23,782 bases of DNA from a virus. Every line of letters begins with the position of its first letter. The first letter of the stretch is position 1. The position numbers were made by a program, and so were the translations under genes. The DNA lies in the IMG/VR virus record IMGVR_UViG_3300048826_000084, positions 1 through 23,782 of that record; one strand, written 5' to 3'. Below the pieces are notes generated by a model. It worked only from the letters and a program-made list of their open reading frames with translations. It searched no databases and had not been told where the DNA came from. Shown piece after piece: positions 226 to 15,657 of the stretch.

Positions 226-300
226 GCGCGATTAGCTCAGCGGGAGAGCGCTTCCCTGACACGGAAGAGGTCACTGGTTCAATCCCAGTATCGCGCACCA
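226..300 (+). tRNA. tRNA-Val (GAC), attachment gene for both elements
   Basis: The acceptor arms GCGCGAT and ATCGCGC pair, the anticodon GAC is at 258-260, and the T-loop is GGTTCAATCCC. Unlike its two neighbours this gene encodes CCA (298-300). Its last 28 bases, plus CG, recur at 13744-13773, and its last 23 recur at 23322-23344. It is therefore the integration target, kept whole because each element supplies a copy of the 3' end. From memory, the Gly-Cys-Val cluster is also the phiRv2 site of M. tuberculosis. Confidence 0.97.
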
Positions 301-302
301 CG
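273..302 (+). other. attL core of element 1 (tRNA-Val 3' end)
   Basis: These 30 bases, from the T-arm of tRNA-Val to two bases past CCA, are identical to 13744-13773. The last 23 bases of the tRNA also occur at 23322-23344. This is the direct repeat expected from integration of tyrosine-recombinase elements at a tRNA 3' end. The exact crossover point cannot be read from the sequence. Confidence 0.92.
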
Positions 303-335
303 TTTGATCTGCATTAACGGTCAAATTCACCCGGG

Positions 336-356
336 TTTGCACCACATATGCACCAC
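336..356 (+). repeat. Element 1 left arm-type site pair
   Basis: Two direct copies of TGCACCAC start 11 bp apart (TGCACCAC-ATA-TGCACCAC). The whole 21 bp occurs again, identical, at 13605-13625 next to the integrase. One copy near each end of the element, in phase with the DNA helix, is the layout of integrase arm-binding sites in phage attP. Function is inferred. Confidence 0.7.
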
Positions 357-408
357 AACGTCACTGCAGGTCAGGACTCCGCACAGTATCCGTGAGGAGA
401 ACCACACA

Positions 409-927
409 GTGACGACAGCAACGAATCCCCCCGCCCTCGCTGTCATGTGCCCGGTATGCCGCGTGCAGCCGGGCCAGCCGTGCCGCGACCCACTCGGGGC
501 TATCACAGAGCGCCACCCAAACCGGCATTTCGCCTGGGACCGCGCGGGCCGGCCGCACCTGTCGGTGCCTGGTGCCACGGTGGACTTCCCCGCACCGGAA
601 GGTTCAGCCATGACAACCACCGCAGCGACCGCAATCCCCGACGTCCCGCTGCCCGCCGGCGCCGAGCACGGCGACACCTGGGAAGGACCGGGCCCGCGGC
701 GGGTCATCATGGGCCCGGACCGCCGTATCACCGACTCGGACGTGTACATCTGGACTTCGGCGATCCAACAGGCGGACGGCCAGATCGCACCGGAGAACCC
801 CGAACCGCCTCAGGTCCACATCGAGGAAACCGGAGACGTGGGCCTCAACAGCGACCAGGCGCGTGAGCTGGCCGCGGTCCTACTCGAGGCTGCCGCCGTA
901 TTGGATGGGTGGGCCGCCCGTGACTAG
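409..927 (+). CDS. Phage-type zinc-binding protein of unknown function
   Basis: The protein has 172 residues. Near the N-terminus it has CPVC, then PGQPC, then a histidine-arginine pair (HPNRH). This spacing is seen in small zinc-binding modules of many actinophage proteins. The C-terminal half contains a helical REL-AAVLLEAA stretch. I chose the GTG at 409 because GAGGAG lies just upstream; the frame stays open further left but runs into the att region. An in-frame ATG at 610, preceded by GGAAGG, could give a shorter 105-residue product lacking the Cys module. The stop overlaps the next gene. By position it corresponds to Rv2645 of phiRv2, but I cannot confirm homology. Confidence 0.7.
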   Translation: MTTATNPPALAVMCPVCRVQPGQPCRDPLGAITERHPNRHFAWDRAGRPHLSVPGATVDFPAPEGSAMTTTAATAIPDVPLPAGAEHGDTWEGPGPRRVIMGPDRRITDSDVYIWTSAIQQADGQIAPENPEPPQVHIEETGDVGLNSDQARELAAVLLEAAAVLDGWAARD

Positions 928-1201
928 GTCCCTGATCGCCGTGGTGTTGGCTGTCGGCGCCGTGTTCGGTTGGTGTGGCCCTGGGTTCGGCTCCGAGGCA
1001 TCGGTTACATCGGTTACAGCTGACCCGCCGGCGCACGCCTCTGGCCCATGCCTGTTCCAAGGCGACTGGAACTGTGACGGGCCACCCCAGTGGAACGGCC
1101 CGCTGCAGCCGACGTGGGAGGTACCGCCCTACACGTGGCCGAACAGCCGGCTGCAGTGCAACCCGTCCGCATATACCTGCTCTCCGGCTGTGCGGCCGTG
1201 A
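920..1201 (+). CDS. Small secreted cysteine-containing protein
   Basis: About 93 residues. A basic start (VTRS) is followed by a hydrophobic run (LIAVVLAVGAVFGW) and small residues, consistent with a signal peptide. The mature part is rich in Trp, Pro and Asn and contains four Cys (GPC, NCDG, LQC, TCSP), which suggests disulfides outside the cell. The GTG start overlaps the previous stop by 8 bases and its own TGA overlaps the next GTG, so the three genes look translationally coupled. I do not recognise the family. Secretion from a dormant element suggests a lysogeny-expressed cargo gene. Confidence 0.6.
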   Translation: MTRSLIAVVLAVGAVFGWCGPGFGSEASVTSVTADPPAHASGPCLFQGDWNCDGPPQWNGPLQPTWEVPPYTWPNSRLQCNPSAYTCSPAVRP

Positions 1202-1488
1202 GTGACGAGGACCGCCGTAGCGGTGGTGGTGGTGGTGGTGCGCTGCTCCTGGTGCTCGTCGTCGTGGGCGCGGTCGCGAAATATGCGATCTGGATCGCAG
1301 CGTTCTTCGGGGCGGTCTTGGTCTTCGGCGGCATCATCTCGTGGTCCTTCTACCTCGCCCGCCGCGACGACCAACGCCGAGCGGCACGGGATGAGATTGT
1401 GGCCCGCGCCGATGAACAGCACCGCCTGGTTCTGGCCGGCGACGACCGCGGCATGTACGGCGAATGGCCACCAGCGCGGATGCCGTAG
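1198..1488 (+). CDS. Small membrane protein with a glycine tract
   Basis: About 96 residues. A short acidic N-terminus (VSDEDRRS) is followed by six glycines encoded by a GGT repeat (1222-1240), then one or two hydrophobic segments (ALLLVLVVVGAVA and AAFFGAVLVFGGII). A charged cytoplasmic tail follows (RRDDQRRAARDE) and ends in MYGEWPPARMP. GTG 1198 overlaps the preceding TGA. It closes the three-gene left-arm unit. Similar small membrane proteins occur in mycobacterial phages; the role is unknown. Confidence 0.6.
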   Translation: MSDEDRRSGGGGGGALLLVLVVVGAVAKYAIWIAAFFGAVLVFGGIISWSFYLARRDDQRRAARDEIVARADEQHRLVLAGDDRGMYGEWPPARMP

Positions 1489-1533
1489 ACCGGAAATCAG
1501 ATGAATATCGGTTACGCCCCCCCGGAGCGGAAG

Positions 1534-1560
1534 CCAGGTGTGTCAGATTGATACACCTGG
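1534..1560. repeat. Inverted repeat with CAGGTGT / ACACCTG arms
   Basis: Arms CCAGGTGTGTC (1534-1544) and GATACACCTGG (1550-1560) pair with one mismatch around a 5-base centre. It lies 46 bases past the stop of the left-arm genes, so it could be a terminator without a T-tract. Its outer seven bases match the palindrome at 3244-3267, which suggests a shared protein-binding site. Confidence 0.6.
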
Positions 1561-1630
1561 TCAAGCGATCTGGCCGCGAGACTGACTATGTCGTCGGCGA
1601 AGCCCTCGGGCAGGGCGAATTTCGCCCAAG

Positions 1631-1648
1631 AAATAGGTATACCTATTT
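1631..1648. repeat. Perfect 18-bp palindrome, probable operator
   Basis: AAATAGGTA-TACCTATTT is a perfect palindrome with no spacer. Its length and dyad symmetry fit a dimeric HTH regulator. It is followed at 1654-1663 by a second perfect palindrome, AGCTATAGCT. Both lie upstream of the recombinase gene. Confidence 0.5.
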
Positions 1649-1705
1649 TCCGTAGCTATAGCTGTTGCTTGCATCGGGTTTGCAATGCACAAGGCAATGC
1701 CCAAG

Positions 1706-1734
1706 TTGCCCATATGTCCAAAATTGCGCATATG
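1706..1734 (+). repeat. Pair of 11-bp direct repeats
   Basis: TTGCCCATATG (1706-1716) and TTGCGCATATG (1724-1734) differ at one base and start 18 bp apart. They could bind a regulator or integrase, or overlap a promoter. Confidence 0.45.
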
Positions 1735-1821
1735 AGTAATCTTCAAAGTTGCTCTACCGCAGGTTAGTTCGGTTGTGTACGCTGACCGGTCATGAGCCAC
1801 CATCCTGCAATTCGGGTCTGA

Positions 1822-1847
1822 CACGAATAGTCGTGCATAGCACGAAT
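1822..1847. repeat. CACGAAT direct repeats with an inverted TCGTGC half-site
   Basis: CACGAAT occurs at 1822-1828 and 1841-1847. TCGTGC (1831-1836) pairs with GCACGA (1840-1845) around ATA. It lies 63-88 bases before the ATG at 1910, a position suited to repression of that gene. Confidence 0.45.
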
Positions 1848-1909
1848 TACATTTCGTCAGAGCGATCTGTCAACGCTATCCTGCGCCATTGTCTTTGAAA
1901 GGCTCCGCC

Positions 1910-3106
1910 ATGACCGCCAAGCCCGTTCACCCACTCTCCTATCCACTGCCCGACGCCTGGGACGCCGCCATTATCGGGTGGCTGACTTACCTGGTGGCCG
2001 CCGGCACATCGCCAGCGACACGCCGCACCCGCCGCGCCCATGTCCGTTCGGTAGCCCATGATCTCGGAATGGCCGCCCCTAACGACGTCGAGACCGCGGA
2101 TATGTTGGCTATCCTCGGCCGTCCTGCGTACTCGATCGAGCATCGTCGTGGCCTGCGGTCCAGCCTGGCGTCGTTTTATCGCTGGTGCGTATCAAAAGGC
2201 ATCGTCGACGACGACCCGACCGCGGCGCTGCCGGTGATCCGCACCCCTATCGCGGCCCCTAAGCCCGCGACTGATGAGATCTGGGCTCAGATCCTGGCCA
2301 CGGCCGACCAGCGGACCCGGCTGATGGCGCGGCTGGCGGGCGAGGCTGGGCTAAGGCGGGCTGAGGTCGCCCAGGTGCACACAGACGATCTGGTCACCAG
2401 CGCAGAGGGGTCGGAACTCATCGTGCACGGCAAGGGCGACAAGCAGCGGGTAGTGCCGGTCACGGCTACGCTGGCCGACGCGATCGCCAACTACTGTCCG
2501 TTCGGTGGCTTCCTGTTCCCCGGTCAGATCGACGGCCATATGAGCCCGGATCGTGTCGGGCACCTTGTTAGTAAAGTCATGCCGAAAGGATGGTCCATGC
2601 ACCGACTGAGGCACAGATTCGCCACTCGCGGCTATGCCGGGACCGGAAACCTTCGCGCGGTACAGGAGGTGCTCGGGCATACGAATGTGGCAACGACACA
2701 GAGATACGTTGCGGTTTCGAGCAGGGACATCCGCTCGGTATCGGAGGCGGCGGCCGGCACTGCGGAAAAGCACCTTGACCAGTCCACACCGACAGCAGCA
2801 CCCAAGAGGGCGGCCCCAGTCGACAGACACACAGTTGACTTTGAGAATGTGATCTCACGATGGGATGACGTCCTCCCTTGCGAGGTGGGCACCTTGACGA
2901 CCTACCAGGCTGCCGTGTGTAAGCGCCGGGCGAACTGGCGGCTCAACTTCCACGGCTGCACTCAAAGGCTGATGTGTGGGCACCACCTACAAGCATGGAA
3001 GCGCAGTTACCTGGCTGGCCTTCACCAGGGGCACCAGATGCAGTGCGTGCACTGCGAAAAAACGTTCGACCAGTTCGACGCCGCCTGCTCGATCACACGA
3101 CTATGA
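1910..3106 (+). CDS. Tyrosine recombinase with a cysteine-rich C-terminal extension
   Basis: The protein has 398 residues. An N-terminal core-binding region (about 15-110) precedes a XerC/D-like catalytic domain. The full residue set is visible: Arg149 (AGLRRAE), Lys175 (HGKGDK), His231-x-x-Arg234 (HRLR), His257 (LGHTN) and Tyr266 (TQRYVAV), so it should be active. A linker and an unusual tail (about 310-398) follow, with Cys324, 337, 350, 356, 379 and 382 plus His358/359, resembling a zinc-binding domain. ATG 1910 has GAAAGG upstream; a TTG at 1889 is less likely. It is not the att-adjacent integrase. Its position corresponds to Rv2646 of phiRv2 as I remember it. Its target is unknown; related palindromes flank it. 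Confidence 0.88.
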   Translation: MTAKPVHPLSYPLPDAWDAAIIGWLTYLVAAGTSPATRRTRRAHVRSVAHDLGMAAPNDVETADMLAILGRPAYSIEHRRGLRSSLASFYRWCVSKGIVDDDPTAALPVIRTPIAAPKPATDEIWAQILATADQRTRLMARLAGEAGLRRAEVAQVHTDDLVTSAEGSELIVHGKGDKQRVVPVTATLADAIANYCPFGGFLFPGQIDGHMSPDRVGHLVSKVMPKGWSMHRLRHRFATRGYAGTGNLRAVQEVLGHTNVATTQRYVAVSSRDIRSVSEAAAGTAEKHLDQSTPTAAPKRAAPVDRHTVDFENVISRWDDVLPCEVGTLTTYQAAVCKRRANWRLNFHGCTQRLMCGHHLQAWKRSYLAGLHQGHQMQCVHCEKTFDQFDAACSITRL

Positions 3107-3171
3107 CCACCGAGCGATACACCGCGGTCTACGACGACGAAATCCGCGCAGCGGCGGCATTCGCGTGGTGA
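3085..3171 (+). pseudogene. Remnant of a tyrosine recombinase C-terminus
   Basis: In a different frame from the preceding recombinase, this stretch encodes LLDHTTMTTERYTAVYDDEI followed by RAAAAFAW and a stop. That is the usual end of an actinobacterial tyrosine recombinase, including the nucleophilic tyrosine context (TERYTAV). No start codon or catalytic body belongs to it. The likely reading is that the Cys-rich tail replaced or was inserted into an older integrase end, leaving this fossil. Without alignments this stays an inference, but the motif is clear. Confidence 0.65.
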
Positions 3172-3243
3172 GTTGTTAGGCAAACACCTAAAAACACAGG
3201 TCAGATACTCCCGCTTATTGTGCAGGGCTTCAGGGACTCAATC

Positions 3244-3267
3244 CAGGTGTCCGAAATCGGACACCTG
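3244..3267. terminator. Perfect palindrome between convergent genes, terminator or operator
   Basis: CAGGTGTCCG (3244-3253), AAAT, CGGACACCTG (3258-3267) form a perfect 10-bp stem. It sits between the plus-strand recombinase and the minus-strand gene ending at 3302, where a bidirectional terminator would be expected. It has no T-tract, which is common in mycobacteria. The outer CAGGTGT/ACACCTG matches the repeat at 1534-1560. The rest of the 3172-3301 gap holds a looser ACACCT...AGGT pair at about 3184-3201. Confidence 0.6.
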
Positions 3268-3301
3268 AACCCCTGCGGAGCCTACGGGATCGGGAACACA
3301 A

Positions 3302-3661
3302 TCACTCGTCTTCGTCATCGGGATACGCCGAGATATCCGGCCTGATCGGATCGACGACCGGCGAAACTGTGCGCTCGACAACATCATCCGGTGTCACCAG
3401 CCACCATGAACCCGGCGCGTTCCCCGGCCGCATGTGCTCCGGCAAGCGAATCTCCCCACTGCCCATGCCCAGCTGCGATGCCGACACAGTCACCGCCTCA
3501 CCCGCATCGAGCGCGTTAAGCAGGTGCCTCGATCGAAGGAAAAAGGCAGCGCCCGGATTCTGCGGGTCCGCCGCCGTCGTGCGGGACCGCGCGGCCCGCT
3601 CCCGCTCACGCCGCAACAGACTCTGGTAGATGCCGGGCACATGAACACTCTGACTAGCCAA
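3302..3661 (-). CDS. Hypothetical protein after the large terminase gene
   Basis: 119 residues, with no family recognised. The N-terminal third is basic (LLRRERERAARSRTT), the middle has FFLRSRHLLNAL, and the C-terminus is acidic (YPDDEDE). The ATG overlaps the end of the large terminase gene by 8 bases, so it is in the packaging operon. In most phages the portal gene follows TerL. This protein is far too short for a portal and shows no portal features. It could be a packaging accessory factor. Confidence 0.65.
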   Translation of the reverse strand: MASQSVHVPGIYQSLLRRERERAARSRTTAADPQNPGAAFFLRSRHLLNALDAGEAVTVSASQLGMGSGEIRLPEHMRPGNAPGSWWLVTPDDVVERTVSPVVDPIRPDISAYPDDEDE

Positions 3662-5375
3662 GTGCTCCTCCTCTGACTCGTGCGATGACTGCTTTCTTGC
3701 GTCGCGCTCCCAGGCCGGCGGACAGCGCGTCCAGGCGGGCTTTCCACGCCATTATCGCAGCGTAGGCGGCATCAATCTTGTCCGGCGACTCCGGATATGC
3801 CTTGTACAGCAGATAGCCCGCCCTCATCGCCCGCCGGCGCGCGTTCAACACATGCCGTGTGAGCGCGGCCGACCCGTCATGCGTACACACGCCGTTCTCA
3901 ATCGCCTGGCCGAGGGTTGCCACGGCGAGGATCGCGGCGGTGTGTTTCCCGGTCGGCCACGCCGAGATCGGCTGCCGTTGAGTAGCCCGCACTTTCAAGC
4001 GACCGCCGTACTTGGCTTCCCACTTCGCGGTGATCTCCGTCCAACCCGACGGGTCAGCATAGAAACCGACCACCTTGAAGCGTTGGAACGCCAACTGCAC
4101 CGCGGCCTCAACCTCAGCGATAGGCGGTGTCCATGCGATTGTGGTGTCACCGGTGGCCTTGCGCTCGGTGGTCGTCTTCTCCCGCCGCGGCGGCTCCCAC
4201 ACCGACTTGTCGCCGATCTCAAACAGATGGCCGTCCCGCACCCGGCAGCCGATCAAAGCTGTAGCGTCCGCTTTGCCCTTCATGCGGCCAGTCGAACCGT
4301 CGAAGCCGAGCGTGATCGTGTCACCGTCATGCACGACGGTGTCGACCGCAGCGCAGGCCAACCATTGTGGCGACGTCACCCACGCATCCGATGCATGAGT
4401 GATCTGGTTCAAGTAGTAGCGGCGCGCATCCTGCGGATCGGTGTCGGGATCCCAGTACTCGGCCACGATCCGATCCAGGTTGACCCATCCGCCGTTATCG
4501 TCGGCGCTCTCCCCGTACGCGAACCGCAAACCTTCCCGCAGCGACTCGTAATCGTCGGGGTCGGTGTCTGCCGGGGCTTCGCGGTGATCGAACAGCAGCC
4601 CAGACGACTTAAGCTGTCCCGCGGTCTGCGCTTGGTATGCCTTCCACGAGTTTTCGGCTACCGACCCCTCGCCAGGAAGATAGGCGTTCGGGGTCTCGAC
4701 GCTGCAACCGTTGACCTTCGCCAAGTTTCGGCGGATCGTGCCAGCCAGCTTCCGGCCGCCATTCGTCGGGGTCCACGACTCCGTTTGATCGCAGGCAGTG
4801 AACACCGGCCGGAAACCCTCACGGCTCAACCCCGCAGACGTCGCCGCCTCGATCCGGCCACGCGGGAAACTGATGAAAGTTTCCATCGGATCGACCTTGT
4901 ACTTCGCGATCAGCTTCGGGCTCGAGCGCACCATGTCCAGACACGGCTCCCACGTGTTGGCCGTGGAATCCTCTGACACGGAGACGATTTGCACCTTCGG
5001 CTTGATCCCGGTCTTAACCCACGGCTTGCCGACCGGGCGCCCGTTGGCGTCCCAACCATCGAGCACGACCGGACCGAACGCCTCCACAATGCACAACGCC
5101 GCAACGATCGGACTTTTCCCCCAGCCTTTGCTCCGCGACAACACCGCACGCCGAATCAACCTGCCGTTGTTGACCGTCCGGCCGACAACGGCGCCACCCT
5201 GAAAGCGCGGATCAACCTCGTACAACTCCAAGACGAACTGCGCCTGCTCGCGGGTCAGGATGAGCGTATCGCCCGTCGCCGGCCCGTCGACCACCGTCAG
5301 ATAGTCCCGGATCCACGCCAGCACCCCTCGCCCCAGCGTCGGCCGCTCACCCGGTGTCGATGGCTTCCAAGGCAA
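3654..5375 (-). CDS. Phage terminase large subunit (TerL)
   Basis: 573 residues, full length for the family. This is the motor ATPase and nuclease that cuts concatemeric DNA and drives it into procapsids. The N-terminal ATPase has a Walker A-like SRSKGWGKS (80-88, Lys87) and a Walker B region FTACDQTESW with Asp196 and Glu199. The nuclease domain starts near GFDGS (Asp359), with a second acidic site at FYADPSGW (Asp441) and a helical C-terminus (AAYAAIMAWKARLD). No frameshift is visible, so it is probably functional. It starts one or two bases after the TerS stop and overlaps the next gene. A complete TerL without a portal or capsid nearby is unusual. Confidence 0.93.
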   Translation of the reverse strand: MPWKPSTPGERPTLGRGVLAWIRDYLTVVDGPATGDTLILTREQAQFVLELYEVDPRFQGGAVVGRTVNNGRLIRRAVLSRSKGWGKSPIVAALCIVEAFGPVVLDGWDANGRPVGKPWVKTGIKPKVQIVSVSEDSTANTWEPCLDMVRSSPKLIAKYKVDPMETFISFPRGRIEAATSAGLSREGFRPVFTACDQTESWTPTNGGRKLAGTIRRNLAKVNGCSVETPNAYLPGEGSVAENSWKAYQAQTAGQLKSSGLLFDHREAPADTDPDDYESLREGLRFAYGESADDNGGWVNLDRIVAEYWDPDTDPQDARRYYLNQITHASDAWVTSPQWLACAAVDTVVHDGDTITLGFDGSTGRMKGKADATALIGCRVRDGHLFEIGDKSVWEPPRREKTTTERKATGDTTIAWTPPIAEVEAAVQLAFQRFKVVGFYADPSGWTEITAKWEAKYGGRLKVRATQRQPISAWPTGKHTAAILAVATLGQAIENGVCTHDGSAALTRHVLNARRRAMRAGYLLYKAYPESPDKIDAAYAAIMAWKARLDALSAGLGARRKKAVIARVRGGALG

Positions 5376-5376
5376 C

Positions 5377-5856
5377 TCATTTACCTACCAGCCGCGGGAA
5401 ACCCGCGAAGTCGTCACCGTCGCCCGCTTCCGAACTGTGCTGCTGTGGCGTGCTCTCGTCCTCATCCGGCGCGTAGGTGATCTTCAGCCGGGCCCGATCC
5501 TCCGCGGTCGCGCCCATCTTCGCCACCCGCAAACGCAACTCGCCCATCATGCTCAGGTCACCATCACCCCACACCCGTGCGTGGATCAGCGCGGTATCCA
5601 TCAGGAAATCCCAATCGGTTGACCGGAATCGGTCGGCCATCGGCTCGGCCGCCCAGTTCGCCCACCACCGCTTCGTCGCCGCCGGCCACACAAACCGGAC
5701 CTTCTTGCCGGCCTTGCCAGGCAGGTACAGCACCGGCAGCGGAGGCTGCCGAACAGCATCCGCGACAAACACCTTCGTGCCGGCGGACCGGGCCTTCGCC
5801 CGGCCATGACCGGCCAGCTGGTCAACGTCCTTCGGGGTCGGTCCCTTACCCGCCAC
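5377..5856 (-). CDS. Phage terminase small subunit (TerS)
   Basis: 159 residues. TerS recognises the packaging site and recruits TerL. The N-terminus (MAGKGPTPK) is typical of actinophage TerS proteins. The middle contains WPAATKRWWANWA and a helical segment around the DTALIHARVWGDG stretch, followed by ELRLRVAKMGATAEDRARL, which fits the P27-like group. The C-terminus is acidic and disordered. The call rests on these features and on the gene lying directly upstream of TerL. It differs strongly from the TerS-like protein of element 2 at 16575-16916. Confidence 0.82.
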   Translation of the reverse strand: MAGKGPTPKDVDQLAGHGRAKARSAGTKVFVADAVRQPPLPVLYLPGKAGKKVRFVWPAATKRWWANWAAEPMADRFRSTDWDFLMDTALIHARVWGDGDLSMMGELRLRVAKMGATAEDRARLKITYAPDEDESTPQQHSSEAGDGDDFAGFPRLVGK

Positions 5857-6224
5857 AGCTACCCCTCTCCGCAGCCGCCGCCGGGGTTTTTAGTGGGGCC
5901 ACTAATAACCTCGCTACCAGCGGTAAGACTGTCCCGAATCCGCCGAAACGGCGCCGCTCCCGGCCCTGTGCGACCGTGTTTGCTGGGATCGCCAGACCCG
6001 GGCAGATCGCTAGCCACAGAGCGTTCCGCATGCGGCGTGGGCCCGGGGGAGGCGGTGGGTGCCGGGGGGTCTGACCTGCGGTTATGGTGACCGTGGGTGA
6101 TGGTGACCGGTGCCCGGTCGCATGGTGGACGTCAGCCGGTTGGGGCGTCGGGTGTGTGCTGGTGATGGTTGACGTCAGCCGTGCGCCGGCGGGGGTCGTC
6201 ACCATTTCAGGCCGGCGGGGGTCG
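5857..6224. other. Gap between HNH and TerS genes, candidate packaging site
   Basis: About 370 bases with open frames on both strands but no convincing gene. In HK97-like phages an HNH gene and TerS flank or adjoin the cos site, so this is the likeliest place for one. It contains an inverted repeat at 5890-5905, a G-rich stretch around 6038-6070, and four copies of ATGGTGAC in two opposed pairs: plus at 6084 and 6100, minus at 6198-6205 and 6224-6231. A GCAGGTCAGA motif lies on the minus strand at 6070-6079. No overhang sequence can be identified by eye. Confidence 0.4.
5890..5905. repeat. Inverted repeat upstream of TerS
   Basis: TTAGTGG (5890-5896), GG, CCACTAA (5899-5905). It lies 34-49 bases upstream of the TerS start codon, where an operator for the packaging genes or a TerS-binding site would be plausible. 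Confidence 0.45.
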
Positions 6225-6236
6225 TCACCATTTCAG
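6185..6236. repeat. Tandem 26-bp duplication across the HNH stop codon
   Basis: Bases 6185-6210 and 6211-6236 are identical. The right-hand unit contains the end of the HNH gene (GLKW and stop) and the left-hand unit repeats it beyond the stop. Each unit also carries one of the four ATGGTGAC copies. It looks like a recent slippage duplication. Confidence 0.8.
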
Positions 6237-6545
6237 GCCTGGGTGTCGTTCGGGCTTCCGCTTCCACGCGTTCCGGGCGACCGTGGCCTCTCGCTGTGCT
6301 TTGCGGCCGTTGCAGGTCGGGCAGGCCGCGACCAAGTTGGCAGGGTCTAGTCGAGCGCCGCCGGCGGCGACGTTGATGACGTGATCGACCTGGGTTGCTT
6401 CGCCTGTGCAGCCCGGCTCTTTGAGTTGGCAACGGTTGCGGTCGTGTTTGAGCACCTGGGCGCGGACGCGCCGCCAAGCGGCGGTCGCGGTCACTTCACC
6501 GCTCTTGGTGCGAGTGCCTTCCCAGGATCTACGAGGCGCGGTCAT
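6225..6545 (-). CDS. HNH endonuclease
   Basis: 106 residues. Structural zinc ligands are CQLKEPGC (Cys39, Cys46) and CPTCN (Cys75, Cys78). The nuclease motif has Asp54-His55 (VDHVINVAAGG), Asn70 (LDPANL) and Asn79, in the correct order for a compact phage HNH. In HK97-type phages such proteins act with TerL at cos cleavage. The gene order HNH, TerS, TerL is the same here, so a packaging role is likely. ATG 6545 overlaps the preceding stop (ATGA), and the start has no strong ribosome site of its own. The stop codon lies in a tandem duplication. Confidence 0.92.
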   Translation of the reverse strand: MTAPRRSWEGTRTKSGEVTATAAWRRVRAQVLKHDRNRCQLKEPGCTGEATQVDHVINVAAGGARLDPANLVAACPTCNGRKAQREATVARNAWKRKPERHPGLKW

Positions 6546-6736
6546 CTGTCAGCCTTCCCGTCTGAGTCGGCACGATTTTGAGCGGTCCTGTGGGGACTTC
6601 TCGGCGTGGGTGGTCGGGTTGTTCCGGCGGCGGCTGGCGCAGGTCGTTGCTCGTGTCCCACTGGGGCCGACCGTCTTGGCAACGCCTTCCCAAGGAAAGG
6701 ATTAGAAGGGTTGACGCCAGCCGCCGCCGTGCTCAT
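6542..6736 (-). CDS. Small basic proline-rich hypothetical protein
   Basis: 64 residues, starting MSTAAAGVNPSNPFLGKALP and then rich in Pro, Arg, Ala and Thr, probably disordered. ATG 6736 lies six bases after the stop of the upstream gene and its own stop overlaps the HNH start, so the gene fits the operon. I recognise no family, and the composition gives little else to judge by. Confidence 0.5.
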   Translation of the reverse strand: MSTAAAGVNPSNPFLGKALPRRSAPVGHEQRPAPAAAGTTRPPTPRSPHRTAQNRADSDGKADR

Positions 6737-6741
6737 GGGTG

Positions 6742-6924
6742 TCAGCCGCCCAGTGCGGTGTTGACCGCGTTGACGACTGCCTTGATGAACGCGCTGTTCG
6801 GGTCGAAGTGCCCGAGCTGGGCCACTAATTCGGTGTCTTGTGTTGCCAGCACGGCCTGGATTGCGGCGGGGTAGCTGCTGGAATTGAATCCGGCCGCCTG
6901 CCATCCGGCGAAAACATCAGACAT
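6742..6924 (-). CDS. Small hypothetical phage protein
   Basis: 60 residues: MSDVFAGWQAAGFNSSSYPA, then IQAVLATQDTELVAQLGHFD and a hydrophobic helical end (AFIKAVVNAVNTALGG). AGAAGGG precedes the ATG, which lies just after the stop of the 318-residue gene. No family is recognised. It belongs to the same leftward operon leading into HNH and terminase. Confidence 0.6.
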   Translation of the reverse strand: MSDVFAGWQAAGFNSSSYPAAIQAVLATQDTELVAQLGHFDPNSAFIKAVVNAVNTALGG

Positions 6925-6926
6925 TT

Positions 6927-7883
6927 CTATTTCCCTTCTGCGAATATGTCGAGGTCGATTGGTGGGGTTGAGGTTTCGAGTGGTGTGACTACGCGCGAGT
7001 ATTTATCGCCGGGCGGTTGCGGGGCTTGATTGAGGACCAGGCGCGCGGGCTGCGAGTCTGGCGTCGGGTTGTCGCGGTCGCGCCGCTCGGCGAACAATTC
7101 GTCGATCTCGGTTAGGGTCGGGATCCATACATGGGCCGGCTGCCGCGCTGCGGCTGGGAGCGATGTGACCAGCCAGAGAAGCAGTTGGACCGGATCGCTG
7201 GGCCACGGCTCGCCTCGCTGCTTGGTGCCGTCGACGTGCATCTGTTGCGCGAGTCCTGGATTCGTCCAGCTCGGCCAGACGTCGTCGAGATTACGAATCA
7301 CCGCCAGGCTGCCGGTGTCTTCACCACCGAGAATCGGCCGGCAGGTTGTCCAATAGTGGCGTGGCGCAAGGTTCAATAGAACGTATTCTTGGGCCGCTCG
7401 CAATTCGGCGTAGTGGCCGGCGAGGTCGCTGAGTGACTTCCAGGCCGGTGCGACGCCGCGCCCGATCGCTTGCTCGGCAGTTGTGGTGCCCTCGAGCTTG
7501 TCGGCGACTTCTGCGACTTCATACAAAAGCTCTGTGAGGCGGTCGTTGAGGACACTGAGAAGGTCGTTGACGTTGACGCGCAGAATCGACGCGGCCTCGC
7601 CTAGCGACGCTTGTTTTGATGCCAGGAGGCGCCGGCGGTGCCTGTCGTGCCGTTCGACGTCCTTGTCGTGGTCGTCGAGCGCGTCGAGCCATTTCAGCGT
7701 GGGGCCGCCGGTGTTGTGCGGGTCGAGCTTGGCGGGTACCGGTGCCGGTGGCTTTAGTTCGCGGAGCAGCTTGTCGGCTTGGTCTGCGCGTGCGAGCGCC
7801 TCCTTGTAGCCGTCCAATGTTTCGATGGCCGGCTTGAGAAATCTGTTATTCGGCAATCTGATTGCGGTCGCTGGCGCGGTCAT
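6927..7883 (-). CDS. Helical hypothetical phage protein
   Basis: 318 residues. The first two thirds are charged and helix-prone (YKEALARADQADKLLREL, then DDHDKDVERHDRHRRRLLA and VNDLLSVLNDRLTELLYEVA), probably coiled coil. The C-terminal part contains YWTTCRPILGG, a DPVQLLLWLVTSLPAAAR helix and a Pro-rich end. It is not a recognisable portal, capsid or scaffold. ATG 7883 follows a GGGGG ribosome site and overlaps the stop of a 35-codon ORF (ATGA). It is the largest unassigned protein of element 1 and could be a particle-remodelling or helper-interaction factor, which is speculation. Confidence 0.75.
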   Translation of the reverse strand: MTAPATAIRLPNNRFLKPAIETLDGYKEALARADQADKLLRELKPPAPVPAKLDPHNTGGPTLKWLDALDDHDKDVERHDRHRRRLLASKQASLGEAASILRVNVNDLLSVLNDRLTELLYEVAEVADKLEGTTTAEQAIGRGVAPAWKSLSDLAGHYAELRAAQEYVLLNLAPRHYWTTCRPILGGEDTGSLAVIRNLDDVWPSWTNPGLAQQMHVDGTKQRGEPWPSDPVQLLLWLVTSLPAAARQPAHVWIPTLTEIDELFAERRDRDNPTPDSQPARLVLNQAPQPPGDKYSRVVTPLETSTPPIDLDIFAEGK

Positions 7884-7987
7884 CGCTGGTCCCCCTTGTT
7901 GTATCGCTTCGCTAGCTCGGCTCTCGCTGATTGGCCGGATCCTGTTCGTGCGGTAGCCGGGTGCCAGGACGGTCTCGGTCGGATCAT
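7880..7987 (-). CDS. 35-codon ORF with a duplicated C-terminal tail
   Basis: A short ORF from ATG 7987 to TGA 7880, preceded by GAGGG and overlapping the next gene by ATGA. Its last residues (GQSARAELAKRYNKGDQR) nearly repeat the end of the protein at 8390-8848 (GQSARAELAKRYKKGGQR). The following gene start (MTAP) is shared too. It is either a tiny functional peptide or the remainder of a duplicated gene whose body was lost. Confidence 0.5.
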   Translation of the reverse strand: MIRPRPSWHPATARTGSGQSARAELAKRYNKGDQR

Positions 7988-7991
7988 CGGC

Positions 7992-8393
7992 TCATCCCTC
8001 GGGCGGGTCGTAAGCCAGGTGCTCATACCGGGACAGATCGTCACCGGGGGCGATCGGGGACCACTCTATTGGGAGGCCGACACGTGCCTCGACCTCCGCC
8101 CTCGTCGGGTGGGCCGCGATGCCGAAGCCCGGAGTGACGGGGGTCGGTATATACGGGAAATACGGGCCCGGACGCGGTGGCGCGACGGTGGTTGTTGAGG
8201 TGTCGATCTTCATCCGGGGGTCGAAGTTCCCCGGCGGGATGGGAGGGCGGTCCCACGGCGCAAATGCCGGGGTGAGTTTACTTTCTGTGCCCTCTGGCGC
8301 GCCGGGCGGGTGCGGCTGGGTGGGCGGGTGCGGCATCTGGGTGCCAAATGCGCCTCCCAGATCCCCGTCCCCGCCGGGTTGCGGTGCGGTCAT
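7992..8393 (-). CDS. Proline-rich hypothetical protein
   Basis: 133 residues, very rich in Pro and Gly (HPPTQPHPPGAPEG, PPRPGPYFPYIPTPVTPGFG), mostly disordered. It ends in a short ordered-looking segment (AEVEARVGLPIEW to YEHLAYDPPEG). ATG 8393 follows a strong GGAGG and overlaps the upstream stop, so I reject the longer open frame to 8576. No family is recognised. Such Pro-rich proteins are common beside structural genes in mycobacterial phages. Confidence 0.68.
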   Translation of the reverse strand: MTAPQPGGDGDLGGAFGTQMPHPPTQPHPPGAPEGTESKLTPAFAPWDRPPIPPGNFDPRMKIDTSTTTVAPPRPGPYFPYIPTPVTPGFGIAAHPTRAEVEARVGLPIEWSPIAPGDDLSRYEHLAYDPPEG

Positions 8394-8848
8394 CGCTGGC
8401 CTCCTTTTTTGTAGCGTTTGGCGAGCTCGGCTCGCGCGGATTGGCCGCGGGCGACTTGGCCGCCGGCCGCGGGCTGCTGCGTGTCGGCGCCGACGCCGTG
8501 CCTCTTTTTGAGAGCGGAGCGGGCGTCGTCGCCCGGCTGTCTGCTCGGGCCGCCGGCAGCGCTGGACTGCCCCCAATTTCGCTGCTGCGATGGCTCGCCC
8601 GTCGCAAAAAGCGCTGTCAGGTGGCCCGCGACTTTCTCCTCGTCGACGGTCCCGGAGGCGTTGGTGAACACGGCCGGGTTCGCGGCATTTACGAACGCGT
8701 CGAGCTGCGGGCCGTCCAAAAACTTGGCTGCGTGGGTCCGGATCTGCTCTGCGGTGTCGGGGGCGCGGAGTTTGGCTGTCATTGCGGCGAATTCGCCGGG
8801 TGTCATGCTGGCGATTGCTGCCTCGGCGTCAGCCGGCAATTCTGGCAT
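8390..8848 (-). CDS. Hypothetical protein, scaffold-like composition
   Basis: 152 residues. The N-terminal half is acidic and helical (ADAEAAIASMTPGEFAAMTA, then FLDGPQLDAFVNAANPAVF). The C-terminal half is basic and disordered (SALKKRHGVG, ELAKRYKKGGQR). This acidic-to-basic layout resembles small phage scaffolding or assembly proteins, but no capsid gene follows, so I leave it unassigned. AAAGG precedes ATG 8848. The gene overlaps its neighbours at both ends. Its final 18 residues are repeated in the ORF at 7880-7987. Confidence 0.68.
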   Translation of the reverse strand: MPELPADAEAAIASMTPGEFAAMTAKLRAPDTAEQIRTHAAKFLDGPQLDAFVNAANPAVFTNASGTVDEEKVAGHLTALFATGEPSQQRNWGQSSAAGGPSRQPGDDARSALKKRHGVGADTQQPAAGGQVARGQSARAELAKRYKKGGQR

Positions 8849-9197
8849 TCCGTTGCCTTTCTCGGTACTCGCGTACTACGTCTTCGTCGAAAACCCACCG
8901 GCCGGCGACCTTTACGCCGCCTAGTCGGTCCTCGGCGATCTGACCGATGTAGCGGGTCGTACAGCGCAAGATGACCGCTGCTTGGCTGGCACTGATCAGA
9001 ACCGTCTCCGATTGTTCATCGCCGCCAGGGGCAGCACTTCCGATAGCGGAAGTGCTGACCTCCAGTTCAAGCGCGCGGACGAGCTCGCTTTCCCAGCCTT
9101 GAATAGGTCGCCTCGGTGGCGGTTTGTCTCCGCGCCTGCGCCTGAGCTCTTGGTTGGCGCAGTACAACGCGAACCCCCAGAGCCGCGGTGTCAGCAT
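8829..9197 (-). CDS. HTH DNA-binding protein, excisionase/MerR-like fold
   Basis: 122 residues. The N-terminal part is basic (QELRRRRGDKPPPRRP). Residues 66-113 form a compact winged-HTH typical of excisionases: VLISASQAAVILRCTTRYI for the HTH, VKVAGRWVFDEDVV for the wing, then a basic tail. I chose ATG 9197, which overlaps the stop of a 59-residue ORF (ATGCTGA); the longer frame upstream is non-coding shadow. This is a second Xis-type protein in element 1, besides the one at 11651-11878. It could regulate the late packaging genes rather than excision. Confidence 0.75.
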   Translation of the reverse strand: MLTPRLWGFALYCANQELRRRRGDKPPPRRPIQGWESELVRALELEVSTSAIGSAAPGGDEQSETVLISASQAAVILRCTTRYIGQIAEDRLGGVKVAGRWVFDEDVVREYRERQRNARIAG

Positions 9198-9370
9198 CCG
9201 CCGGCCGTTCCCTCGTGTATCAACACGATGGCATCGGCGATGTCCATTACCAGCGCCCGGGCTTCGTCGATAGTCGCCTCGAATGTGCACATGCCGTAGC
9301 CGATGACGATGGGGTGGTCGCCGGTCTGCGCGCTGACCCGGGCGGTAAAGGATTGCTTCCGAAGCCTCAC
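9191..9370 (-). CDS. Small hypothetical protein (GTG start)
   Basis: 59 residues from GTG 9370 to TGA 9191, beginning VRLRKQSFTARVSAQTGDHP and ending in a helix (DEARALVMDIADAIVLIHEG). The GTG overlaps the upstream TGA (GTGA) and its stop overlaps the next ATG, so both junctions are coupled. It fills what would otherwise be a gap in a tightly packed operon, and its third codon positions are mostly G or C. No family is recognised. Confidence 0.62.
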   Translation of the reverse strand: MRLRKQSFTARVSAQTGDHPIVIGYGMCTFEATIDEARALVMDIADAIVLIHEGTAGGC

Positions 9371-9609
9371 GTGTTGGGCCTGCCGTCATCGCGGACGAGA
9401 CGCAGCGTCGCTGGGGTGGGCCGATCAGTCTTTTCACGGTCAACCGTGAAAAGACTGGTGGGCGCGTCGAGTCGATCAGTGATCTCGGTTAGCAGCCCGA
9501 GCAGTCGCAGCGCTTCGGGTGCGGTCAGATCGGCCGGGTGCAGGCGCCGCCAGTGCCGTGCGATAGCGCCCAGGATCGGCCGCAGATCGTCTAAGACGTC
9601 CGGCTTCAT
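9367..9609 (-). CDS. Small helical hypothetical protein
   Basis: 80 residues: MKPDVLDDLRPILGAIARHW, then a Leu-rich helical stretch (TAPEALRLLGLLTEITDRLD) and a basic tail (TLRLVRDDGRPNT). The start overlaps the upstream stop and its stop overlaps the next GTG. No family is recognised. By position it falls where phiRv2 carries small genes of the Rv2653c/Rv2654c region, but I see no clear resemblance to them. Confidence 0.62.
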   Translation of the reverse strand: MKPDVLDDLRPILGAIARHWRRLHPADLTAPEALRLLGLLTEITDRLDAPTSLFTVDREKTDRPTPATLRLVRDDGRPNT

Positions 9610-9842
9610 GGCTCACGCACCGCGAGGATTGCGGTCAGCGGCCCGCTGATTCGGGCGCCGGTATCGTCGGTGAAGGTGAATCCGGTTGCGGTGATGAGAC
9701 GGTCCCGGCCGCCGGCGTGGACCAACTGCTCCTCGCAGACGTATTCGTAGGAGTCCAGGTCGAAAGATTCGCCGGCGACCATGTGCCAGCCGTCTGCCAG
9801 GAGCACGTCGGTGATCCTGTCCGTGTCGATCGCAATGCTCAT
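9606..9842 (-). CDS. Small hypothetical protein
   Basis: 78 residues beginning MSIAIDTDRITDVLLADGWH, probably alpha/beta, with an acidic middle (SFDLDSYEYVCEEQ) and a beta-rich end (LITATGFTFTDDTGARI, PLTAILAVREP). ATG 9842 follows GAAAGGAAC and overlaps the end of the ATPase gene (ATGA). The frame is open further upstream but lies inside the ATPase gene. I think similar proteins occur in other mycobacterial prophages; the role is unknown. Confidence 0.65.
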   Translation of the reverse strand: MSIAIDTDRITDVLLADGWHMVAGESFDLDSYEYVCEEQLVHAGGRDRLITATGFTFTDDTGARISGPLTAILAVREP

Positions 9843-11320
9843 TGGTGGTTCCTTTCGTAGCGGGTTTGCGGGCACTTGGGTTTGTGGCCTTGGGTTGGTA
9901 CGTGACAGCCGCATCGGTCGCAGCGCTCCGGGCCTGTAGGTGGCGTGAATCCTGGCCCGTTGGAACCGTTGTCCGGCGGTGGTGCGTCAGAATCCGTCAG
10001 AAGCGTCAGAAGTGGCCTCTGATCTGGGGTTTCGCGTTGACGGATGATTTCGTTCTGACGGATCGATCCGTCAGACGGTTTGAAAGTGTCAGTCGGTCTT
10101 GGCTGTTCACGCTGTGTTTCTGACGCTTCTGACGCTTCTGACGGATCGTCCGCGAGGTATCGGCCGAAGGCGTCCTTGAGGGCATCGAGCCGGTACCCGC
10201 GGACGCTCCCGGTGGTATTGCGTTCGGAGCGCACGCCGAACGGTTTGAGTCGCCAGGCGAGTTTCCTGGTCGTCATCTCGAACTCACTCCACGGCGACTC
10301 ATCCAACTTGGACAGTGAGGACAACAAATCCACGGATGCGATGAAGGGCACTGCCCGCTCGGCGAATATCGTGCGGATATCGGACAACAGCCTTGTGCTT
10401 AGTGAGCCGTCTTCGTCTGCATCAGTCGCCCGGTCGACCAACGCTTTGCACGCTGCCCGGGCACGCTGCGGCCAATCGCCGCCGGCCAAGTCGGCTACCG
10501 CGATCAACGGCTCCCATGTATCGGCAGCCCGATCTTCTACGGGCATGTCTGGTTGTGCCTGCCTTAGCTCATCGATGTGCGCGGCCGCCCACACGGCAAG
10601 CTGCTCTCGAAGGGTCACCAGCTTCGGGTTGTCGCGGCGAGATCGGAACTGCGCGACTGTTTCACCGCTGGCCCGCCGGCGCATCGAGATGTTGATTGCC
10701 CTATCTGTGATCGTGTCGGGCATATTGCCGATTCCTGCGAGCGCAGCCATAGCGAAGGTGTTGAACTCTGTGGGGATCTGCATCTGTCCGACGCAACGTA
10801 GAGCGGGCCGGCCGCGTTGGTGGCCAGCGTTTAGCAGTGCGCGCAAATCCTCATTTTGTTCGGCGACACGCTTGGAACCGAATATCGTGTCGGCCTCATC
10901 TATCACCAGCGTGGGTGGATGATCTCCGTTGATCGAGCGGAAGATTGCGGCCACGGTCGCGTTCGATGTCGCCAACGTCTTATGTGACGTGCCGGTGATG
11001 ATGTCGAGCAATCGCGTTTTTCCACAGCGCTTTTCAGGGCTTGTGGCAACCAGTCGCGGCGCGAACTCGAACGCCGGCAGAGCATGCGTTGCCGCTGTCC
11101 ACAGTGTCACCGCTACCGACGAGTGTCGATCAGGCAGCGCAACGTAGCGCATAAACGTGTCGTGCAGGTCGTCGAGCAGCTCGGCGCCTTCGACGTCTAC
11201 AGGACCAGGTGGTGTACTTTCCACCAACTGGCCGTCGCGTTCAGCAGTGTCGGGAGCGGGCCTGTACCTGCCGGATTCGGCGATCGCTTTACCGTGTGCC
11301 ACCAGATCGTCAGTCGTCAT
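9839..11320 (-). CDS. DUF3631-type P-loop ATPase
   Basis: 493 residues. It has Walker A SPEKRCGKT (94-102, Lys101), Walker B TLVIDEADTIF (about 137-147) and the family block DLRALLNAGHQRG, then a helical region (DRAINISMRRR, LLSDIRTIF). A C-terminal CDRCGCHVPTQGHKPKC looks like a zinc ribbon. DUF3631 proteins occur in actinophages and mobile elements; a role as a replication ATPase or helicase is plausible but unproven. ATG 11320 has CGGAG upstream and overlaps the previous gene; a GTG at 11329 is possible. I recall Rv2655c of phiRv2 as the positional counterpart. A distant relative is at 19267-20679. Confidence 0.87.
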   Translation of the reverse strand: MTTDDLVAHGKAIAESGRYRPAPDTAERDGQLVESTPPGPVDVEGAELLDDLHDTFMRYVALPDRHSSVAVTLWTAATHALPAFEFAPRLVATSPEKRCGKTRLLDIITGTSHKTLATSNATVAAIFRSINGDHPPTLVIDEADTIFGSKRVAEQNEDLRALLNAGHQRGRPALRCVGQMQIPTEFNTFAMAALAGIGNMPDTITDRAINISMRRRASGETVAQFRSRRDNPKLVTLREQLAVWAAAHIDELRQAQPDMPVEDRAADTWEPLIAVADLAGGDWPQRARAACKALVDRATDADEDGSLSTRLLSDIRTIFAERAVPFIASVDLLSSLSKLDESPWSEFEMTTRKLAWRLKPFGVRSERNTTGSVRGYRLDALKDAFGRYLADDPSEASEASETQREQPRPTDTFKPSDGSIRQNEIIRQRETPDQRPLLTLLTDSDAPPPDNGSNGPGFTPPTGPERCDRCGCHVPTQGHKPKCPQTRYERNHQ

Positions 11321-11651
11321 TGGCGCCACTCCGCTTAATGATCGTGGCTAGCTTAGTGCGCGCCAAATCGTCGAGTTGAGATGCGAATTCGCGCAGCACG
11401 TAGCGAAGAGCTGCCACGTAGCCTTGACGATAGCCAGCGGCTCTCAAGCCTGTCGTCGGCCTGTGGTATCGGCGGCCTCGGTGTAACGGGTCGGGATTAT
11501 CGCCGATCATGCGAACAGCCGCTCCGCGTCGGCGCTGGCGCGCTGCCAGATCGTCGAACTCAGGTGCGGTATCGTAGGCGGTAGTTGTGGTGGTTTCTAG
11601 TGAGGCGCTGGCCGGGTCTGAGGGGGCCCGGTTTTCGTCTTTCTCAGTCAT
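11310..11651 (-). CDS. Hypothetical protein between excisionase and ATPase
   Basis: 113 residues. The N-terminal half is polar (MTEKDENRAPSDPASASLET). The second half is basic and helical (RYHRPTTGLRAAGYRQGYVA to LDDLARTKLATIIKRS), compatible with DNA or protein binding. The ATG overlaps the excisionase stop (TAATG) and the end overlaps the ATPase start. Its place matches Rv2656c of phiRv2 as I recall it. No domain is recognised. Confidence 0.65.
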   Translation of the reverse strand: MTEKDENRAPSDPASASLETTTTTAYDTAPEFDDLAARQRRRGAAVRMIGDNPDPLHRGRRYHRPTTGLRAAGYRQGYVAALRYVLREFASQLDDLARTKLATIIKRSGANDD

Positions 11652-11878
11652 TATCCGGCGCCGCCCATCGGTGTGAGCACCGCGTCCAGGTCTGCAACTT
11701 TGACCTTGATAATCCGGTTGCCAAGACGGTAGCCGGGCAGAAGCTGCGCGGCGATTAGCCGTCTGATCGTCTTGTGATCAACGTCGAGATATGCTGCCGC
11801 TTCAGGAATTCCGACATAAGCGGGGCGTAAAGCGGAATGCCGCCGAGTCGACTGTGAAGAACTTTTTACGTTGGCCAT
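11651..11878 (-). CDS. Excisionase-like HTH protein (Xis)
   Basis: 75 residues. Residues 21-66 form the small winged-HTH of excisionases: YVGIPEAAAYLDVDHKTIRR for the HTH and YRLGNRIIKVKVADLDAVL for the wing and last helix. It would bind attachment-site DNA and steer the integrase towards excision. It is the first gene of the long leftward operon and lies close to the integrase. Rv2657c of phiRv2, which I recall as an L5-gp36-like excisionase, occupies the same position. Candidate binding repeats are at 13639-13664. Confidence 0.85.
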   Translation of the reverse strand: MANVKSSSQSTRRHSALRPAYVGIPEAAAYLDVDHKTIRRLIAAQLLPGYRLGNRIIKVKVADLDAVLTPMGGAG

Positions 11879-11989
11879 GAGCTAGCCCGTCCCCTTCGGG
11901 ATCTGGCTGCTGGCCCCTAAATGTGCAACGTCCGCGGTTCGCCCGCATATGACCGGTTATCAGAGTACAGAAAAGTCAACGATTGGGTA
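11879..11989 (-). promoter_or_regulatory. Probable promoter region of the excisionase operon
   Basis: This is the only gap in the leftward gene array between the integrase unit and the packaging genes. It contains TTGATA and TTGACT boxes on the minus strand near 11970-11995 and an AT-rich stretch (TACTCTGATAAC), but I cannot pair them convincingly. GGGGACGGG precedes the xis ATG as a ribosome site. Confidence 0.4.
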
Positions 11990-12457
11990 TCAACGCCGGC
12001 TCGTCGGCGTGTTGCTGCTTTTCGAGCCTGTGCGCGCCAGGATGCCTTTTTCAGTGAACTGGTGGTGCCCGCACTCGCAGACACTGAACACGAGCTCTGC
12101 GCGCGGAGGTTCCGGATCGCAACCGGTGATTATGTTGAATCTCCACTCTCCCAGGCGATATGAGCGCTTCTGAGACATCACTCGAGCTCGTTCCGTTGGA
12201 TCCATGTCGACGGGAAGGGGAATTAGTTCGTTTGTGCGGTAGCGCATCACGCTAACTGGCTGATCGGTCGGAAGCCTCAAATCAAGAATCTGAATCACGA
12301 CGTCCTCGCATCTAGCGCAGCGGATTTCGTGGGCGATGTACCGCGACCGCTTCTTGTAGGGCAGCGTGTTGATGGCCAGAAGTTGGTCCCTCAGGTAGTC
12401 GTATATTTTCGCGGTGTCTTCGTCCTTCCACCACGACAAATCCAGTCGCTCGTTCAT
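11990..12457 (-). CDS. Cys-containing protein coupled to the integrase
   Basis: 155 residues with two possible metal-binding clusters, CARC (near residue 47) and CECGHH (near 127), in an otherwise polar protein (SWWKDEDTAKIYDYLRDQL at the start). ATG 12457 overlaps the integrase stop (ATGA), so the two are co-translated. A Cys-containing small gene in this place is also seen in element 2 (21510-21968), and I recall one (Rv2658c) in phiRv2. Conserved linkage suggests a role with integration or its control; the function is unknown. Confidence 0.68.
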   Translation of the reverse strand: MNERLDLSWWKDEDTAKIYDYLRDQLLAINTLPYKKRSRYIAHEIRCARCEDVVIQILDLRLPTDQPVSVMRYRTNELIPLPVDMDPTERARVMSQKRSYRLGEWRFNIITGCDPEPPRAELVFSVCECGHHQFTEKGILARTGSKSSNTPTSRR

Positions 12458-13593: not shown

Positions 13594-13604
13594 TGTTGCC
13601 GCCT

Positions 13605-13625
13605 TTTGCACCACATATGCACCAC
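13605..13625 (+). repeat. Element 1 right arm-type site pair
   Basis: Identical over 21 bp to 336-356: two TGCACCAC units starting 11 bp apart. It is 12 bases upstream of the integrase GTG, so integrase binding here could also control its own promoter. It lies about 120 bases from the core at 13744-13773. Confidence 0.7.
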
Positions 13626-13638
13626 TATAGAGGGAAGG

Positions 13639-13664
13639 TGTGGTTAGTTGTGGTCAAGTCTGGT
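13639..13664 (+). repeat. Three 10-bp-spaced TGTGGT repeats, candidate Xis site
   Basis: TGTGGT at 13639 and 13649, then TCTGGT at 13659, exactly one helical turn apart, between the right arm site and the core. Excisionases of phages such as lambda and L5 bind repeats phased like this in the same part of attR. Function is inferred. An inverted pair AGCAGG/CCTGCT (13687-13714) lies between these repeats and the core. Confidence 0.5.
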
Positions 13665-13743
13665 AAATGCTACTGTTTGGCGTGTCAGCAGGTCAGAGGC
13701 TTTCTGTGCCTGCTCAGCAACAGTGTAGAGGATCCTGATTGAG

Positions 13744-13773
13744 ACTGGTTCAATCCCAGTATCGCGCACCACG
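13744..13773 (+). other. Middle attachment site: attR of element 1 and attL of element 2
   Basis: This 30-base copy matches the tRNA-Val 3' end (273-302), but with no tRNA body to its left. Its last part is shared with 23322-23344. To its left is the integrase end of element 1; to its right the left arm of element 2 begins. An open frame on the minus strand across it (13644-13874) is an artefact of the junction. Confidence 0.92.
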
Positions 13774-13788
13774 CTTGACCGCAGGTCA

Positions 13789-13805: not shown

Positions 13806-13819
13806 GCCGCGCGGGCACC

Positions 13820-15650: not shown

Positions 15651-15657
15651 CGACCTC

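Follow-up and report, generated by a model that had tools for sequence, protein, structure and literature searches.

The satellite proteins closest to the one described here are CpmB of the Staphylococcus aureus pathogenicity island (SaPI) SaPI1, which competes with the 80alpha scaffold via a C-terminal RIIK helix and hook present in both (PMC5644958), and Rcm of SaPIpT1028, which corresponds to the helper scaffold in its C-terminal part (PMC12409344). SaPIs carry the terminase small subunit (TerS) at most and no large subunit (TerL), whereas the element E1 analyzed here encodes both. E1 is part of the IMG/VR record IMGVR_UViG_3300048826_000084, which comprises 23,782 bases and is called the window in the following. 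It resembles the capsid-forming phage-inducible chromosomal islands (PICIs) in carrying genes for an HNH endonuclease, TerS and TerL (PMC10690885, PMC12409344) but differs from them in that capsid, portal, protease and connector genes were not detected. According to the best reading, the new feature of E1 is the combination of an own terminase with a borrowed, redirected capsid, which places it between PICIs and capsid-forming PICIs.

Like CpmB and Rcm (PMC5644958, PMC12409344), the scaffold-like protein of E1, termed scaffold mimic here, is short and shares the C-terminal part of a phage scaffold. It belongs to another sequence family and host, has two tails in its long form and is known from sequence; formation of small capsids is a predicted role of the E1 mimic. 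Candidate Mycobacterium PICIs and phiRv1/phiRv2 are in part integrated at tRNA genes by a tyrosine integrase and some have terminase and scaffold genes, as E1 does (PMC10654092), but it is a major capsid gene that defines these candidates, and no such gene is present in E1 or its relatives. Since the large mycobacterial survey required an integrase plus a capsid gene (PMC10654092), the E1 family would be missed by it. The Streptomyces satellites MulchRoom and MiniFlayer are likewise actinobacterial and encode TerS, TerL and a scaffold (PMC10690885); however, they also encode portal and capsid and have no known primases. AH14b, a suspected precedent, has no identified terminase (PMC4936722). 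No description of a terminase-encoding satellite without capsid genes was found in the literature searched, which mostly did not cover subscription papers, including the original capsid-forming PICI and satellite-census papers.

E1 is one of two tandem elements at a tRNA gene

The 5' end of the window contains genes for tRNA-Gly, tRNA-Cys and tRNA-Val; in a class-wide genome sample, the genomes that match best have this cluster at 93-95% identity. The host genus is taken here to be Mycobacterium, because relatives of the scaffold and of TerL occur in mycobacterial phages. The end of tRNA-Val is repeated exactly, over 30 nt, at a distance of 13,471 bp downstream, and part of this repeat is present again 9,573 bp further. 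The spacing of these repeats therefore defines E1 (~300-13778) and, in tandem with it, a second element, E2 (~13779-23351). Both encode an integrase, an excisionase-like protein and a DUF3631 protein of their own; the HNH-TerS-TerL module lies in E1. With 13.47 kb and an integrase at tRNA-Val attachment (att) repeats, E1 corresponds to the PICI type of small element (about 10-16 kb) with an integrase at a specific att site.

273-307, no strand: attL of E1, the 3' end of tRNA-Val(gac) (exact 30-nt repeat with 13744; tRNA call)
13744-13778, no strand: attR of E1, also left att of E2 (att repeat)

E1 encodes an intact HNH-TerS-TerL module

6225-6545, minus strand: HNH endonuclease (Pfam HNH 2e-8; PHROG 8e-23)
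5377-5856, minus strand: TerS (Pfam Terminase_7 1e-24; 63% to the TerS of phage fragment L064)
3654-5375, minus strand: TerL (phrog_9 9e-69; 573 amino acids without stops; motifs intact)

A first-pass annotation of this DNA had reported a complete, functional-looking packaging module, and the searches bear this out: HNH, TerS and TerL were all matched, are all intact and lie on the same strand. TerL retains the Walker-A motif (SKGWGKS), DQTE and the nuclease motifs (GFDGS, ADPSGW, KIDAAY), and its third-position GC content is of the coding type (0.78). It is 58-68% identical to phage TerLs of its own family (Cornie, G629, McProf-type), with 68% identity to McProf and 64% to L064, a phage fragment that combines related TerS, TerL and portal genes with a Cornie-type scaffold. 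The HNH protein is 69% identical to the HNH of a related satellite (L050), compared with 37-45% to phage HNHs, and is therefore best read as a satellite gene, TerS and TerL as phage-type.

The sequence of TerS, TerL, the gene at 3302 and a recombinase gene recurs identically on a separate IMG/VR contig (L002, 5,680 bp). Since this contig starts inside the gap between HNH and TerS (312 nt of the 400-nt gap query matched), the link of TerS to HNH and the rest of E1 rests on one record; continuity across the gap is supported by an L049-type element lying in it.

Portal and capsid genes were not detected

Portal, major capsid, MuF, protease and connector families had no match among the E1 genes scanned with Pfam and PHROG, which agrees with the earlier claim that a portal or capsid gene is absent. 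The first-pass annotation had suggested profile searches of the unassigned proteins, among them the following three, which have homologues in related loci and are thus conserved satellite genes.

6927-7883, minus strand: 6927-family conserved satellite protein, predicted to be largely helical in a low-confidence model (no phage match; present in relatives)
6742-6924, minus strand: small conserved satellite protein (L049 homologue, 5e-25)
3302-3661, minus strand: conserved satellite protein overlapping the TerL end (homologues in relatives without TerL)

These proteins and the one encoded at 7992 showed no similarity to portal or capsid proteins; the remaining protein, encoded at 8390, turned out to be a scaffold homologue (see below). 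For the 6927 protein, a hidden portal or capsid was considered and rejected: it had no significant PHROG, Pfam or PDB match and no match in 50,697 phage records, and the profile-profile comparison (hhalign) of its family with portal, major capsid, MuF and decoration profiles gave a probability of 0.1%. Its structure predicted without an alignment reached a pLDDT (predicted local distance difference test) of 46 and was not used for a fold search. Besides TerS, TerL and the short scaffold, no structural, tail or lysis genes or remnants of a prophage were found in E1; one weak C-terminal 'tail fiber' PHROG match lies within the recombinase at 1889-3106.

A shortened head-scaffolding protein with a doubled tail

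8390-8848, minus strand: scaffold mimic, corresponding to the C-terminal half of a phage head scaffold and bearing the tail motif twice (phrog_4708 7.6e-11; tblastn to Cornie gp4 4e-7; alignments; motif count)

The earlier statement that no head gene is visible has to be corrected, because the protein encoded at 8390-8848 is a shortened head-scaffolding protein. The match to the head-scaffolding family phrog_4708 spans residues 6-122, and the protein aligns to the C-terminal halves of the Cornie and prophi102-2 scaffolds. About 110 N-terminal scaffold residues are missing and a C-terminal extension is present. As in CpmB, a shorter protein thus shares the C-terminal part of a phage scaffold.

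The tail motif, roughly G..[AG]RxAAxKR[FHY], is present in one copy in all eight phage scaffolds with an intact C-terminus and in two copies in the long mimics (135-157 amino acids, plus L086 with 101 amino acids); for the L049 mimic the two motifs were read from the alignment and not from the motif count. Minimal mimics (52 amino acids or more) are made up of one tail and, before it, an N-terminal module (about LxxAFEQHLRSLSDxEWxALxxRVR); in the shortest ones the module comprises 30 residues and little else besides the tail is retained. Two tail types correspond to two kinds of phage scaffold tail, the first being GDAGRAAAEKRFGK in L095 with the prophi102-2 counterpart GTAGRAAAAKRFG, the second NEGLAEARRRGYID in L097 with the Cornie counterpart EEGLAEARRRGYIKD. 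The mimics of L058, L088 and L096 do not match the motif pattern, although the alignments of the latter two still display a related tail. By analogy, the tail of the mycobacterial mimics would bind the capsid protein. The mimic structure predicted without an alignment (pLDDT 61) was not used for a fold search.

7992-8393, minus strand: proline-rich gene between scaffold mimic and 6927 (no PHROG match; the neighbours mostly abut or overlap in relatives; junction duplicated in a 65-nt repeat)

This repeat (83%), with copies at 7873-7937 and 8383-8447, covers the last part of the scaffold mimic and the beginning of the gene that follows. Where scaffold mimic and 6927 meet, the proline-rich gene appears to be an insertion.

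Related satellites in Mycobacteriaceae have the backbone without a detected terminase

Searching the genus Mycobacterium with the 8390-8848 protein revealed short relatives in at least eight genomes and, in addition, scaffolds of full length in loci that resemble prophages and include portal and capsid genes. The class-wide scaffold search in 395 genomes found nothing, and IMG/VR scans for relatives of 6927 and the scaffold mimic yielded none. The short mimics sit in a conserved module that starts with a helix-turn-helix (HTH) protein, continues with the mimic and the 6927 family, and in part includes HNH and a 3302 homologue.

8829-9194, minus strand: HTH protein at the start of the conserved satellite module (HTH_17 0.0015; homologues in relatives; hhalign to an excisionase family 95%)

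The 6927-family profile was present in 19 of 297 genus genomes and 15 of 301 family genomes, two samples that overlap. Altogether, parts of this backbone recur in about 29 related loci of Mycobacteriaceae. Scaffold mimic and 6927 occur together in 18 elements (E1 counted); the weakest members (e.g., L089, L091, L098, L101, L104) match by 6927 only, which makes their membership less certain. Repeats of the att type are spaced 12.6-16.4 kb apart in 11 elements, E1 counted; each of these elements lies at a tRNA gene found in its region or has repeats that are tRNA-like. This spacing fits a capsid-size limit, and the element sizes are compatible with small capsids. The longest att-bounded element, L093, carries a transposase.

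With profiles built for this analysis, TerS, TerL, portal and capsid genes were found in none of the about 29 satellite loci in the regions fetched; the TerL profile covers phrog_9-like and prophi102-like TerLs, whereas TerLs of other families would have been noticed only in spot PHROG scans, which were made for large open reading frames. Several relatives keep HNH despite having no detected TerS or TerL. Directly before the 3302 homologue, sometimes after HNH, the relatives have a gene of about 118-200 amino acids (the slot gene), often with a zinc-finger-like N-terminal stretch (e.g., L049 11811-12170, L054 7867-8436). E1 lacks this gene, and TerS-TerL occupies its position, which suggests that a scaffold-mimic satellite acquired a terminase rather than that E1 lost its capsid. 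The slot gene may serve packaging in the relatives. An identity as TerS was rejected, since hhalign gave 0.7-1.4% and neither Pfam nor PHROGs yielded a terminase match; the gene was left unassigned.

A decayed prophage, which the first-pass annotation had named as a possible refutation, is unlikely because the backbone is common to many relatives without capsid genes. The same data make it highly improbable that E1 is a capsid-forming PICI or prophage stripped of portal and capsid genes. Although mycobacteria often carry phiRv-like elements and PICI candidates with a capsid gene (PMC10654092), about 29 relatives have the backbone but no capsid genes and TerS-TerL is found in E1 alone, pointing to terminase gain; moreover, E1 shows no head-gene remnants and its genes are intact.

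The relatives also bear on how E1 is packaged. The captured TerS-TerL could mainly act against the helper, competing with its terminase at the portal and so blocking the packaging of phage DNA, with E1 DNA chiefly packaged by the helper terminase at a helper-like cos site as in cos-type SaPIs. Relatives with the same backbone do without detected TerS and TerL, several keeping HNH, and the helper terminase must serve them. Nevertheless, we consider this explanation unlikely for E1, whose TerL retains ATPase and nuclease motifs that would be needless for a mere blocker.

In ten related loci a gene of the tail tape-measure kind (1116-2081 amino acids) was observed, identified by PHROG matches or by homology to such a gene; four of them (L056, L090, L094, L103) lie inside att-bounded elements.

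L048 2373-8618; L056 4915-8265; L058 10203-15488; L085 2484-6611; L087 10862-15316: tape-measure-kind genes
L088 2931-6623; L090 11036-15952; L092 4994-9214; L094 3391-8439; L103 11627-16126: tape-measure-kind genes

Satellite-encoded tape measures were reported as new in 2026 in Vibrio PICI-like elements (PLEs) with chimeric tails (PMC12987554). The likeness is one of gene content, the hosts differ, and E1 itself has no tape measure. These genes may merit more attention than the terminase finding. Near another related satellite module, a gene (L053 13744-14916) matches the minor tail protein family phrog_754 (7e-27).

Inverted palindromic sites flank the TerS-TerL-3302 block

5886-5923, plus strand: palindromic core GTTTTTAG-N8-CTAATAAC plus CTCGCTACCAGCGG, upstream of TerS (core 5886-5909)
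3172-3201, minus strand: inverted second core copy, after 3302 (core 3172-3195; 30-nt identity with L049)
1889-3106, plus strand: second tyrosine recombinase (Phage_integrase 1.9e-21; phrog_1 3.7e-36)

TerS, TerL and 3302 are flanked by inverted copies of GTTnTTAG-N8-CTAAnAAC. When the window and 39 fetched regions were scanned for this pattern (at most one mismatch, spacers of 6-10), only the two E1 sites and one site in L049 (11642-11685) were found, the latter joining the outer sequences of both E1 copies. A scan for AACCTCGCTACCAGCGG returned L002 and otherwise only stretches with unrelated flanks, and the 59-nt core region had no phage match of note. The gene of the second tyrosine recombinase lies next to one core copy, together with a fragment (2974-3171) that follows this gene in another frame and resembles the C-terminal end of a further recombinase (...TERYTAVYDDEIRAAAAFAW). 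The palindromic sites may be recombinase cores, making the block invertible or exchangeable; present recombination activity is doubtful, because the spacers of the core copies differ. The sites could just as well serve protein binding or packaging.

Such an arrangement would also be expected if TerS-TerL were a recent passenger, brought by phage recombination or a recombinase-borne cassette and without part in E1 transfer, and its single occurrence among about 30 elements points the same way. We regard this as distinctly unlikely, since TerL differs by at least 32% from the nearest phage TerLs compared, yet has no lesions and keeps its coding-type third-position GC, and TerS and TerL adjoin within one gene run.

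Further genes of E1 and the tandem element E2

12454-13614, minus strand: E1 tyrosine integrase (Phage_integrase 6e-18; phrog_1 1.5e-59)
11651-11878, minus strand: E1 excisionase-like HTH protein (phrog_66 4.8e-6)
9839-11329, minus strand: DUF3631/AAA-like protein, with a putative replication function (PF12307 7e-61)

E2 is a satellite-like element at the same tRNA-Val and carries an integrase and a DUF3631 protein. Its TerS (phrog_1496 1e-15; Terminase_4) is of a different family from that of E1, and neither TerL nor a scaffold mimic was found among the E2 genes. A trypsin-like protease gene (14397-15650; Trypsin_2 1e-16) possibly has a defence or cargo role.

A satellite with its own terminase and, probably, a redirected helper capsid

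With moderate confidence, we interpret E1 as a satellite whose scaffold mimic redirects helper capsid assembly and whose own terminase packages its DNA. Read from the sequence are the E1 boundaries, the intact terminase, the homology of the mimic to scaffolds, with its N-terminal part lost and its tail duplicated, the shared backbone and the lack of a detected portal or capsid gene; from these we infer induction, competition, small capsids, self-packaging and the kind of helper. Growth of a helper siphovirus of the Cornie, prophi102-2 or G629 kind in the cell would induce E1, which would excise (integrase and excisionase), replicate (DUF3631 protein) and then express the late module. The scaffold mimic and the scaffold of the helper would compete for helper capsid protein, resulting in small procapsids. 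HNH, TerS and TerL would recognize E1 DNA, cleave it and move it through the portal of the helper, and the particle would be finished with helper tails. A helper that suits both terminase and scaffold is plausible, because L064 unites related TerS, TerL and portal genes with a Cornie-type scaffold.

Several points speak against this interpretation. The form with TerS-TerL is known from one element only, L002 being the same sequence, and the nearest TerL (McProf type) and the nearest scaffolds (Cornie, prophi102-2) come from different phages. No cos or pac site and no helper phage of E1 were identified, and the roles of 6927 and 3302 are left without explanation.

Of the packaging-only satellite put forward by the first-pass annotation, the own complete terminase and the lack of portal and capsid genes stand; the term packaging-only does not, because the scaffold homologue probably redirects helper capsid assembly. 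More tentatively, E1 may represent a satellite class with its own packaging motor and a shell made from helper capsid protein via a mimic, which combines a constant N-terminal module with exchangeable, helper-matched tails. The packaging slot would be a swappable cassette, filled by a small gene in the relatives and by TerS-TerL in E1, and with ten relatives having a tape measure instead, this could be a modular family in which each member picks one virion part.

As an intermediate with its own terminase and a borrowed shell, E1 makes the stepwise gain of capsid independence by satellites testable. The mimic family, ranging from about 52 to 157 amino acids, is a natural series for defining the minimal requirement for capsid redirection. 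Moreover, the study of satellites without capsid genes is opened in mycobacteria, where one published search demanded a capsid gene (PMC10654092).

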